Positions 23,301-29,300 of a DNA stretch of 64,000 nucleotides are shown piece after piece. The number at the start of each line of letters is the position of its first letter. Position 1 is the stretch's first letter. Where the stretch lies: the NCBI RefSeq assembly GCF_028389875.1, contig NC_084671.1, positions 26,133,083-26,197,082 of the forward strand, written 5' to 3'. The notes beneath the pieces are model-generated. The model was not told the origin of the DNA, made no database searches, and was given only the letters and a program-made list of their open reading frames with translations. Source of the DNA: Rhea pennata. Lineage: Eukaryota > Chordata > Aves > Rheiformes > Rheidae. Both the position numbers and the translations under genes were made by a program.

Positions 23301-26300
23301 TAATGGTTTGTATGTCAGTCACTCTTGGCTTAAAAAATTCTGGCAAACTGAAGTACTGTGTTCCAGAAATGTTTTACTTAAAATTTCAGGTTACGTTTCT
23401 GTTATGAACAAAATACAAGTTGGTAGGATGTACAGCATGAAGCTAACATAGATTTCATCCTCAATGTAGGCAAGCTACTAGTCATGTCAAATGTTTTTTA
23501 AAAGGTGGTGCTTAACACTACAGAAAATGTAACATATTGAGAGTATTTTTATCCTTTGCTTGTCTAAGTTTTATCAGTTTGAATGCACTGTTTTCTTTAC
23601 TTGATGTTTCAGCCACAGCAGCTTGCTTTCTAGCTAATGTCAGCGGGTGGGATTTTTAGAGCTCATCAGCACAGCTCCTAGTGGGGTAAACAGCCTGGAA
23701 GTAAAACTTTGAACATGCTTCTTGTATAATACCTGTCAGCCTTTGCAGCAAAGTACCAGTTGTCTTTGTTATTGTGCCTTGTTACGTGGGACTGTGCTTT
23801 TCATATTCTTATGCAGCAATCTTAAGTTAGTGATTTTACTCTCATGAATTTGTCTAAGTCTTAAAAAATTCTTCAGTCTTCTGTTTACAGCATGGATATT
23901 CTGCTAGTTTCCTGAGACCAAAAGTTTTTAACTGGGTTCATTCTAAAATCTGTGGAGTATATTTGGAATTTTCCAAACAGACTGTCAGTATGTTTCTATT
24001 GGTTGAGAGCCATGAAGTATAGACATGGTATGAACCAGGAGTTGTTTTCCTCTTTCCAGAACAGAGTATGGCAGAGAGACCAGCGAGATATGCGAGCAAT
24101 TCAGCCTGATGCAGGATATTATAATGATGTAAGTAAAACCTTTCTACTTCCGGTGAAGCTCTGTGGATAAAACTGTCTGGAAATGAGGATTCTGGCTTTC
24201 AGTTGAAGTTTTCCTTTTGTCCACAAGAGGTCTCAGATATGAAGAATGTCTTCACCTTATGGTCTCTTGTTCTGTTGGAGTCTATCCCTGAAAAAAGCCT
24301 GAAATGGGATAGGCTATTCATTTTTTGGACTTAAGAACTCTAATAATGCATTCAGTGTGCTAAATCTTAATAGGTTGCACTTGAAGATGCTGGTTCTGGA
24401 TATTTGAAATGGTAAATCACGTAGGCTTTTGAACAGTTCTGTGGATTAATCCCTGGTAATATATCTCTGCAATTTAAATACTTGCCTTTCCAGAAATGGG
24501 TGTTCAGAGGGTATGTTTTTCTTGCAGTTTCTGGCTAGAAATATTGCTACTAAACTTGTTATTTCGTCTCTCCTAGTTGGTCCCGCCTATAGGAATGTTG
24601 AACAACCCAATGAATGCTGTAACAACAAAATTTGTTCGGACATCTACTAATAAAGTAAAGTGCCCCGTATTTGTTGTCAGGGTGAGTTTTATGTTGGTTT
24701 GCTTAGTTGCATTGTCTTAATTTAAATTAAAATAATAATATGCTTAAATGAAGAAAGAAACAAGATGATAGCAGTGAAAGCTACTTCCAAATAAAAGTAT
24801 CATGTGGAATGTGTAGACTCTCTACCTTAGATTTTAGAAAAATTGTAAGGTCTGAGTACAAAACAGTTGCATCTCCCACATTTTAATCAAAAACTTTCAG
24901 AATGTTTTTCTGCTAATACATTTTAACTCATAGAAAAGAGGCTATTTGGTCTCTGCTGTTTGACTCTTGTAGCATCTATTAAACTTTTTTTTTTATATAT
25001 ATATGGACTTGCTTTGTCCCAGTGTTACAAAATCAAAAGTCCTCTGGCGAGGTTATGCCTCCTTTTTCTTTTCCTTTTTTTCCTTTTTTTTCTTCCCGTT
25101 ATACACGTCTACTAGAAAAATCATTTAATAAATATTGTTCTGCAGATTCCCTGGAAGAAGCTTATGATTTACTTAGAGGATTATGAAGAAATGTTTGTGT
25201 ATTACCTTCCTGCAGTTTAATTAAATTTTTCTTTTGCAGTGGACTCCTGAAGGGAGGCGCTTGGTTACTGGGGCATCTAGTGGAGAGTTCACCTTGTGGA
25301 ATGGACTGACTTTCAATTTCGAAACGATATTACAGGTAAATTCATCTAGCAAAGTTTCCACTTGTTTTCTTGCAGTCACAGAGCATGTTTTAGGTATACA
25401 TCTTCATCTGTTCGTCACTGGTCTGTGGTTTAACTGGAGTAATGGGAGCCTGAGAGGCTTTTTTATTTTTTTAATCTGTTCTGATCCTTTGTCATACTGT
25501 AGTTATAGGTAATTTATTTAATGCTTTTCATTCCATCTCCATACATTATACTAACTGTTTTCAAGGACATATTCATAATATAAATTTAGTAATAAAAACC
25601 ACTTAAACCAAAGCGCAAATACTAGTCTTTTATTTAGAAGACAATTCTATACAGAGTAAGAAAGTGGCATTTTTCCACAAGAACTTCTCAAATCTAAGTA
25701 GATCATCATTGTATTTGTTTTTTGTTACAGCTGCTAAGTAGTATTTTTTTTGACTGTTATGTTCATGTGGGTCAGATAGTATTTGAACGTGTTTGCTAGA
25801 AGTTCTGTTTCTAACTTCACAGGCTCACGACAGCCCTGTAAGGGCTATGACTTGGTCACACAATGATATGTGGATGCTGACAGCAGACCACGGGGGATAT
25901 GTGAAATACTGGCAGTCCAACATGAACAACGTCAAGATGTTCCAGGCACATAAGGAGGCGATTAGAGAGGCCAGGTTTATACACAATATACCATTTTCTG
26001 TAGTACCTATTGCCATGATTAGACTGTTCTCTAAGTGTATTCTGGGTGCAGAAATGCATGGGTTCTGTCAGAGTCTGGGAAACTTCCTGCACCACATAAA
26101 CACAGTATTTTCTTTTGTTTCCACATTCTCACCGTTTTGCTGGCACCTTTCTGAATTAGTATTGTCCCAGTATCCGCCTCTGCAATATGTTAGAGATGTA
26201 TTTGTCTGCCGCATTTTGCACTGGTATTCTTTTCATTTTTATATGGTGACGATGTGTATCAGTTATTCCTTTTTATACGCACTGTGTAAGACGACAATTT

Positions 26301-29300
26301 CATTCCAAATAAAGAATTCAGTCTTTAATAATCTAACTGAATAAAATATAAAGCCTTCAGAAATAAAACACCTGCATAGTTCTCACAAAATAATAAAACA
26401 CTAAATAAAGTGAAGAACTGCTTGGCTTGGTGAAGCCAAGATTTCCAGTAATACTAAATACCCACGCAGATTGCCACATACAGAAGTCTAATGTTAATAA
26501 TGAATGGATTCTTCAAGCTTGAAACTGTAAGCAGACTATTGAAAGAAGACTGTAGGACATTCTCTTGGTTCAGTGTTTATGCCTCAGTTGTGCAAATGTC
26601 TATACTGAAAATGGAATCTAAAGTGATACTATCAGTAATATGTAAATGAAAGATGTTTCTAAAGCAAACTTGCACATAATCTTTAGTAAGATGTGGAAAT
26701 AGAAGATACGTTTTTAAAATAAGCCTGAAAAGCTGCAGACCCAAAATAAAGCTAAAGCAGTGTTTCTTTGGGTTCAAGTGCTGGCCCTTGGTGGTAAAGG
26801 TTCACTGCCAGAAAAACACTTTCCACTGAGGTCACCATTTTTCTTTGATAGGGCGCAGTATTTCCAGCCAGAGTTTGGTTATATGAGAAGTGCTTACATT
26901 TGGATTCAGTTACTGTCCATCATGCCCATACACTGAATTCCTCTACTATTTAAGCCCCTTCCTAATCATAAAGATCTGGAATTTCAAGGGATTCTCTCAT
27001 GGTCTGTCACTGCACCAGAAAGGAAGTGGGTTGCTGGAGATGTTCTGGCCCTAATCAGGTGGCTAAATAACTCCTTGCTTTTCCAGAGACTTTCGTCAAG
27101 TGATGCTGACTGTTCAATCTGGAAGGTGCTTCTATGTTTGTAGGATTCTTTTCGTGGTGATGATGGGGTGGGTAATAGGAGGGAATTTTTCTAAATTCCT
27201 TTACAATAAATGGTATACTTGTTTTATATACAGCTTTTTTTCCAGCAGTTAATCCAACTAGCCTTTTCCTATGACCAGCTTTTCCTTATTTTTGCTTCTC
27301 TGCTGCAAAGCACCTGTGGCTGAAGAGGAGTATTTTTCCTAAGAACTGTTCTCCTGTACTTCTACACAGTGTCACTCTTATGGTATTACCAAACATGAAA
27401 AACTAGGGTGGCAAGTCATATTGATGTTGCTTCTCATCCTGCAGAGAAGGCGCAACCGTGTACAGTCATAGGTAGGAAGGTGCTAAGAAAAAAATTCTGA
27501 ATTTTTTTCCTCATTTGACTGGGGAGAACAATGCAATAGTAATCCTACACTAAATTCGTGTCTTGTGGTGAAGTATCAGTTGGCAGGCACAGTGTTCACT
27601 TAAGTCCCTATGTTCAAATGCCTCTTCAGTGTATAACACCTTACAGTATAATTTTGCCCTGTCTGAGAAGCATAGATAATCTGTTAAATGCTGACTTCTT
27701 TCCCCTGCTGTGTGTCTTCATGTAACAGTTTCTCACCCACGGATAATAAATTTGCTACATGCTCTGACGACGGCACTGTTAGAATCTGGGACTTTCTACG
27801 TTGCCATGAGGAGAGAATTCTTCGAGGTATGTGTACCAAAAGTACTGATTGGGGTATTTCAAGAGGGGCTAAACTTTTTTCTTTAAAACTAGGTGTACAC
27901 AATACAGAAGTATCAAGTTGTCTCCATTTTTGTAATACGTCCCTGTCTTAAATCCTCCGAACAAGTTTTTGCTTGGCTGCTGTTATAGCTGCCTTGTATT
28001 CAGGCTGCAGTTCACTATGGCATTAGTCTGTTTACTGTCCACTTAAACTCTAAACAATGGAGGTGGATATGAGGATCTCTTTTTCTACTCCTACTGTTGG
28101 TAGAAACAACTGTTTCTAGATAAGGAATACATTTACTTTTGCCATAGCTTAATCTTTATGACCACTTTTGCTTCAAAACATGCATCTTCATGCAGAGGAT
28201 TTCATTCTTTTCATGGGAGTACCTTTCATTCTGATTTAAGAAGCAAGTTAGTTAACTGTTTCTCAACTCCTCTTAAGAGAAGAAGAGCAGTTAGGTAGAA
28301 AACAACTGAATTTTGATCACACCATGTATAGCACATGCAAATTATCCTAGCTTCAGTAGTTTTCTGTCCAACATCTGCGCACTAACATCTGGTGCCTTTC
28401 CACTGGTTACTTAGGAGCTTTATCTCTTTTTCTGTAACTTATTGAGTAATAACACCAGCTTCTGACAACAGTTCCCTTCTTGCAGAAGATGTCAAAGGTA
28501 TATGATTTAGTATGAAGATAAGCTAAAGGCTGCTGTGAGATTGGTGGGGCATGCAGATAAACTGCAACAAAGATGTACAATAAAACCATGGCATGACATC
28601 AGTGCTTTCTCAAATCAATGACTTTTTTGTTATCCTTCCAACTTGGACCTGCATTATGTATTTTATGAATTACAGCTCTTCCTGCTTCTCTTGACTCTTA
28701 AGCTCTCTTCTTGTTCTACTAATGCAGTACTTTCAAACACTGCCACTCTCAAAAGACACAGGGCTCCACTGGGCAATGATGACTTTCTATTGGAAGCTGT
28801 TATAGGCTTAACTGTAGAAATGTGTTCTTTGAAGGAGCTAGCAAGCAGGTTTCTAGGCTATGTCATTTATATCCGTTATTTTGGAAGGACTCAAATTTGG
28901 GACTGGTTTGCTTGATGCTTTACTGAAGAAATACATTCTGTACTAAATGTGCCCTATTCCCTTCTCCGTGCCTGTACTAACTACTCCATTAAGTTGTGTG
29001 AAGGAAATGAGGTTTGCCTCCATGCAGAGTTTAATCCAATGTCTAGATTGTAATAAACTCCCTTTCTTCTACATTCTTTGAACTTTGTGCATAAAGCAGA
29101 AGGAACAAAGCGGAGAATAGAACGTGAATACGAAGAATAGAACGTGCATTACATATCCTTCTGTTACATGAACATTGTGAATATATCTCAAATAGAATTA
29201 TGTTTCAGTTCTTATAGTTTGTACCTCTCAAGCTACAATTCTATTTTGCACAAGAGTTCTGTAGAGAATGATTTGGCTTCTACTTATGATGCACCCATGA

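Follow-up and report, generated by a model that had tools for sequence, protein, structure and literature searches.

Alternative polyadenylation allows the human WDR33 gene to produce two functionally unrelated proteins. The short form, V2, ends in a transmembrane tail of 118 residues that intron 6 encodes, is located in the endoplasmic reticulum (ER), and acts on STING (PMC11445923, RNA Biol 2024). Intron 6 of the human gene (1,668 nt; introns 7 and 8 are 36,284 and 1,435 nt) is reported to be removed inefficiently, and UGUA lies about 20 nt upstream of the A[A/U]UAAA of two V2 sites, PAS0 in intron 6 and PAS3 in exon 7; a further poly(A) site, PAS5, is found in intron 7, and a third form, V3, has a 16-residue tail (PMC11445923). 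The available part of PMC6458999 describes PCF11-dependent premature, intragenic polyadenylation of WDR33 in both human and zebrafish, giving no tail and no position for the zebrafish site. A related arrangement occurs in the CstF-77 gene (CSTF3), where the poly(A) site of intron 3 lies behind a weak donor and has UGUA upstream of it; the short products are very low at most, as far as the accessible text of PMC3708835 goes.

We analyzed a window of 64,000 nt from the bird Rhea pennata, which contains WDR33 on the forward strand (Table 1). Over its first 208 residues, the predicted protein is identical to a solved WDR33 chain except at residue 71, where V replaces I (207 of 208 positions). Pfam placed one WD40 repeat in exon 6, under the cut-off (21.1 versus 27 bits). 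Residues F43, K46, R47, R49, K50, and F153, which bind RNA in WDR33, are all present, in agreement with the initial annotation, which held that a short form would keep the RNA-binding N terminus.

Table 1. Features of the WDR33 locus (positions within the window)
Feature	Position	Strand	Basis or remark
WDR33 coding exon 2, residues 1-68	21928..22131	+	Exon map, match to solved WDR33; in full-length and short forms
WDR33 exon 3	24060..24128	+	Exon map
WDR33 exon 4	24577..24681	+	Exon map
WDR33 exon 5	25240..25335	+	Exon map
WDR33 exon 6	25823..25974	+	Last exon common to full-length WDR33 and the read-through form
Intron 6 donor, CAG/GTTTAT	25972..25980	+	Also codes within R209-F210-I211 of the tail
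Read-through tail, 123 codons, residues 209-331	25973..26341	+	In-frame reading past the exon 6 donor
UGUA	26285..26288	+	Starts 23 nt before AATAAA 26308
AATAAA, candidate counterpart of human PAS0	26308..26313	+	Precedes the stop
TAA stop	26342..26344	+	Within AATAAA 26340-26345
Further AATAAA at 26340, 26362, 26392, and 26404	26340..26409	+	Hexamer scan
UGUA in intron 6 acceptor tract	27721..27724	+	Starts 24 nt before the AATAAA of exon 7
WDR33 exon 7	27729..27826	+	Exon map
AATAAA in exon 7, codes Asn-Lys	27745..27750	+	Same exon as human V2 PAS3

The WDR33 frame was said to run on past the exon 6 donor for 123 codons and to end at poly(A) signals, and it does so: the predicted product has 331 residues, and its TAA lies inside an AATAAA. 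Elsewhere in the introns of the gene (forward strand), 0.185% of 35,641 starts remained open for at least 123 codons, about 1 in 540. When the tail was put through 20,000 dinucleotide shuffles, 15 were free of in-frame stops, about 1 in 1,300. Reading on from the 13 other exon ends (14 examined) gave 1 to 58 codons, versus 123 for exon 6. The other two forward frames of the tail contain 7 and 8 stops, and the three reverse frames contain 6, 4, and 7. Another stop-free stretch, of 158 codons, is present among the introns of the gene. The intron and acceptor statistics used 59610 as the start of exon 16, which the exon map places at 59619, a difference of 9 bases in about 36,000 intronic bases.

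Intron 6 is weak at both of its splice sites. By matrix, its donor scored -2.66, the weakest of 14, versus 1.63 to 8.85 for the other 13; by the same score it ranks at the 76th percentile of all GT sites of the gene, and the other 13 rank at or above the 95th. The U1 duplex energy of the intron 6 donor (-5.6) is the third weakest of 14, the donors of exons 3 and 8 being weaker. The pyrimidine share of the intron 6 acceptor tract, 0.59, is the lowest of the 13 tracts compared, a set from which the exon 16 acceptor was left out.

Five AATAAA hexamers fall within positions 26308-26409, and a short G/T-rich stretch lies past them, at about 26420-26432. The G/T share behind the hexamers at 26308-26362 is low, 0.29 to 0.36 versus a mean of 0.50. 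As background, UGUA occurs at a spacing like that seen in intron 6 and exon 7 upstream of 10 of 79 hexamers, and an A/T-rich repeat in intron 2 likewise forms a dense group of AATAAA. Early intron 7 contains AATAAA at 28579 and 29052. Cleavage usually occurs 15 to 30 nt behind the hexamer, according to the accessible part of PMC8934656; from the hexamer at 26308, cleavage at that distance would land before or within the stop, leaving a transcript that lacks its stop or has it completed by the poly(A) tail. With 3' ends past 26355 the stop would stay intact.

The locus resembles human V2 in several respects. In both genes intron 6 holds the tail in the same frame (118 residues in human, 123 in the bird), following 208 residues shared with full-length WDR33 and ending at an intronic in-frame stop; the human total, 208 residues plus a 118-residue tail, fits the length of about 326 given in the initial annotation. 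AATAAA is found in intron 6 and in exon 7 of both genes, with UGUA about 20 nt upstream in human and 23 and 24 nt upstream in the bird, and the inefficient splicing of human intron 6 may have its parallel here in weak splice-site scores. Introns 6 and 7 measure 1,754 and 27,006 nt in the bird, compared with 1,668 and 36,284 nt in human, whereas intron 8 differs (573 versus 1,435 nt). In the bird, the hexamer with the close UGUA, at 26308, stands before the stop. The proposal that read-through of exon 6 yields a short WDR33 isoform is supported by agreement with human V2 in intron, frame, tail length, signals, and splice-site weakness, and the short form is probably the bird counterpart of V2. 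The case for homology to the human form rests on place, frame, length, and signals rather than on aligned letters. The unusual second role suggested for such a product is real in human cells, where V2 is located at the ER and acts on STING, and had already been published (PMC11445923).

Two likely membrane segments had been claimed for the tail; hydrophobic peaks do exist, but there are three on the octanol scale (residues 210-228, 249-267, and 292-310) or one above 1.6 on the Kyte-Doolittle scale (residues 214-232), and none rises above the controls. Among 713 translated intron pieces, 21% were as high as the tail by mean Kyte-Doolittle value, 46% by the best 19-residue window, and 25% by the best octanol window; among 2,000 permutations of its residues, 63% and 43% were as high by the latter two measures. 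The octanol peak count of the tail was reached by 94% of permutations and by 4% of 50 intronic stop-free stretches of at least 60 residues, most of them shorter than the tail. Tail hydropathy was thus no higher than in the intron or permuted controls, and we rejected it as proof of a membrane tail. Codon usage likewise gave no support as proof of coding. The tail scored -0.309 versus an intron mean of -0.340, 37% of intron pieces scored equally high, and all three reverse frames of the tail outscored the tail frame. The 14 known exons, on which the score was itself trained, gave in-frame values of 0.10 to 0.75, with another frame scoring higher in 3 of the 14. A structure model of the tail alone was all helix at low confidence (mean pLDDT, 63.8), and a control model of a single, similarly hydrophobic intronic open reading frame had mixed structure (mean pLDDT, 37.0). 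A fold search with the low-confidence tail model returned no matches, Pfam assigned no family to the tail, and Rfam gave no matches in window positions 20000-30000.

Relatives of exon 6 plus the tail were sought in a collection of genome contigs, with 11 pattern matches, none of them confirmed, and in a collection of viral contigs, with none found; two of the six patterns used lay in exon 6 and were expected to pick up any vertebrate contig with that exon. Within the bird's own genome, a DNA search with the locus returned only the locus itself, in two pieces, and a protein search returned the locus and one match at an E value of 0.83. A second copy was not found, and within the reach of these own-genome searches we reject an origin of the tail from a repeat or paralogue. 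A strict scan of intron 7 for a V3-like end exon (exactly 16 residues, at least 75% pyrimidines) gave no candidates. The portions of PMC3287031, PMC8934656, and PMC10404622 available to us contain nothing on a bird V2.

The intronic poly(A) site could instead act chiefly as an attenuator: premature cleavage would reduce full-length WDR33, possibly to feed back on polyadenylation capacity, and the frame would be incidental and its hydrophobic product destroyed. The CstF-77 gene offers a precedent, for its intronic poly(A) site is conserved, follows a weak 5' splice site, and mediates negative feedback (available text of PMC3708835); it shares with WDR33 here its class, that of genes for 3'-end processing factors, as well as the intronic signal, weak donor, and upstream UGUA, but its short products are very low at most, whereas WDR33 has a long open tail. 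The PCF11-dependent attenuation of WDR33 in human and zebrafish, in the part of PMC6458999 available, is likewise intragenic and concerns the same gene. Codon usage and hydropathy of the tail, which resemble those of a translated intron, and the expected cleavage behind 26308, before or within the stop, also fit attenuation. Under that explanation, however, a 123-codon frame with odds of about 1 in 540 to 1 in 1,300 would have arisen by accident, and in the very intron that codes the 118-residue tail of human V2, with its ER and STING roles (PMC11445923). We consider attenuation as the chief function unlikely, although an attenuator role and a V2-coding role are compatible. Pure chance, under which intron 6 is ordinary, its open frame accidental, and AATAAA the by-product of an A-rich stretch, could draw on the 158-codon stretch, the AATAAA group of the intron 2 repeat, and the intronic composition of the tail, but it is highly improbable, given that the frame, its length, a stop set among the signals, a weak donor and a weak acceptor, and signal spacing like that in human coincide at the locus where the human isoform is known (PMC11445923).

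Taking the short form as the counterpart of V2, we infer from the human work how it would arise and act in the bird, namely site use, slow splicing, and a protein that resides in the ER and acts on STING. The weakness of both splice sites makes slow removal of intron 6 probable. Slow removal would give the polyadenylation machinery time to act at the AAUAAA signals around the intronic stop, or at the exon 7 signal. The resulting mRNA would retain part or all of intron 6 and code for the 331-residue protein, in which a hydrophobic, probably helical tail would come after the AAUAAA-binding N terminus and the initial part of the WD propeller and would anchor short WDR33 in the ER membrane.

Retention in birds of the tail coded by intron 6 would mean that the second protein is ancient and subject to selection, which would speak for V2 as a genuine product and not a by-product of attenuation, and it would open the link between V2 and STING to tests outside mammals. 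How splice sites, tail codons, and poly(A) signals overlap would then become a defined comparative question. More tentatively, and with the balance somewhat against it, the switch may date back at least to the split between birds and mammals: the gene for the AAUAAA reader would use AAUAAA to make its own product an ER membrane protein, and in birds, as in humans, polyadenylation capacity would set how much of a STING regulator is made. STING itself is represented in the bird's genome by three exon matches over the cut-off, with stops only behind the exon ends, and these were confirmed against solved STING chains. Finally, several elements of the WDR33 locus overlap: the donor of intron 6 also serves as tail codons, the acceptor tract of that intron contains a CFIm-type UGUA, and the stop is part of an AAUAAA.

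WDR33 lies on the + strand of the window, on contig 9 of the searched genome (1.27 billion bases, 180 contigs), and 14 coding exons (2 to 15) were placed with GT-AG borders; the first 208 residues of the spliced product are identical to solved WDR33 at 207 of 208 positions. When intron 6 is left unspliced, the frame stays open for 123 codons from residue 209, whose AGG codon straddles the exon 6/intron 6 border, and closes at a TAA (26342-26344). The exon map thus bears out the initial annotation, which had the frame continuing 123 codons beyond the exon 6 donor to give 331 residues in total; its placement of the frame end at a poly(A) signal cluster also stands.

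Features of the WDR33 read-through region (hexamers by start coordinate)
Feature	Position or length	Strand	Remark
Exon 6	25823-25974	+	exon map
Intron 6	1,754 nt	+	exon map
AATAAA, first	26308	+	
AATAAA, second	26340	+	stop TAA lies within it
AATAAA, third	26362	+	
AATAAA, fourth	26392	+	
AATAAA, fifth	26404	+	
Exon 7	27729-27826	+	exon map
Intron 7	27,006 nt	+	exon map

Reading on at the 13 other WDR33 exon ends, the frame closed after 1 to 58 codons. A frame as long as the intron-coded tail (residues 209-331) was found in 15 of 20,000 dinucleotide-shuffled tail sequences and at 0.185% of 35,641 other intronic starts in WDR33, the latter figure resting on few stretches because the counted starts overlap. 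One stop-free stretch in the introns, of 158 codons, exceeds the tail in length.

An isoform of this kind is already known in human as V2, reportedly first described in Cell Rep in 2024. The human study describes a form that retains intron 6 in part or whole; the intron, 1,668 nt long and inefficiently removed, encodes a C-terminal transmembrane domain of 118 residues and contains an in-frame stop. The V2 sites are PAS0 in intron 6, PAS3 in exon 7, and PAS5 in intron 7, and UGUA lies ∼20 nt upstream of both PAS0 and PAS3 (PMC11445923). The window resembles this arrangement in intron, frame, tail length, and intronic stop, and has hexamers in both intron 6 and exon 7 with similar UGUA spacing: 23 nt upstream of the 26308 hexamer, and 24 nt upstream of the exon 7 AATAAA (27745), within the intron 6 acceptor tract (start to start; background in WDR33, UGUA 16 to 30 nt upstream at 10 of 79 A[A/T]TAAA).

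The splice sites of intron 6 are likewise poor. Its donor, CAG/GTTTAT, scores -2.66 versus 1.63 to 8.85 for the 13 others (mammalian matrix) and ranks at the 76th percentile among all WDR33 GT sites, where the others reach at least the 95th; its U1 duplex energy (-5.6) is the third weakest, after the exon 3 and exon 8 donors (both -4.9). Among 13 acceptor tracts compared, that of intron 6 is the poorest in pyrimidines (share, 0.59; rest, 0.65 to 0.88). On these shared features of layout, rather than on aligned tail letters, we therefore take the read-through as probably the bird counterpart of V2. Intron 8 differs in length, 573 nt in the window versus 1,435 nt in human (PMC11445923). A literature search of open-licence papers found none on a bird V2 among the matches listed. 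The weak donor (25973-25980) shares bases with codons R209, F210, and I211 of the tail, and the strength of the donor and the coding of the tail may therefore place limits on one another.

The two likely membrane segments that the initial annotation had placed in the hydrophobic tail could not be upheld by hydropathy: translated WDR33 introns are hydrophobic in general, and the tail was not distinct from 713 such pieces, nor from 2,000 versions of itself with the residues permuted. Its codon score is intron-like, with reverse frames outscoring the tail frame, and gives coding no support, although the score was trained on WDR33 alone and is a weak test for a membrane protein. A single-sequence structure model of the tail is all helix (mean pLDDT, 63.8), whereas a control intronic ORF of similar hydropathy (42173-42517) gave mixed structure (37.0); this contrast between predicted models, with one control ORF, favours a protein-like tail. 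A Foldseek search of the PDB with the tail model returned 0 matches.

AATAAA clusters of such density are uncommon in WDR33, yet there is more than one: an A/T-rich repeat in intron 2 (∼23069-23222) also has at least five within 110 nt, so such clusters can arise from composition alone. G and T are scarce directly behind the first three hexamers, and their share is near the mean (0.50) behind those at 26392, 26404, and 27745. Cleavage usually occurs 15 to 30 nt behind the hexamer (PMC8934656); from 26308 it would be expected at ∼26328-26343, ahead of the stop or within it. If the transcript were cut directly behind the T at 26342, the poly(A) tail would complete the stop as UAA.

Most likely, as proposed for human, slow intron 6 splicing would compete with polyadenylation at weak sites, the probable outcome being a short ER-anchored WDR33 protein. 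Such polyadenylation would necessarily also reduce full-length WDR33; attenuation, a design exemplified by CstF-77 (PMC3708835), and a second protein would therefore not be exclusive. Intragenic polyadenylation of WDR33 is reported to be PCF11 dependent in human cells and zebrafish embryos (PMC6458999), and the intronic isoform to rise more than two-fold on pro-inflammatory polarisation of human macrophages (PMC10286830). Human V2 is described as localising to the ER, binding STING, suppressing its disulphide-linked oligomerisation, and aiding STING-induced autophagy (PMC11445923). Three exon matches above the family cut-off, with stops only behind the exon ends, mark a STING gene in the searched genome. 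Comparison with solved STING confirmed its identity (nearest solved relative 6nt6, chicken STING), so the binding partner of human V2 is present in Rhea pennata, and the bird short form may contact it.

Elsewhere in the window, a Gly-Pro-Gln-rich open frame of 384 codons (59556-60707) contains WDR33 exon 16 and matches the Pfam collagen repeat (PF01391; E, 7.3e-10). A GC-rich region at ∼4946-6062, in which both strands carry long open frames, may represent the first exon of WDR33 together with its CpG-island promoter, and a GC-rich tandem array at 534-699 comprises ∼8.6 copies of the 20-base unit CGGCCGTTGGAGCCCGGCGG.
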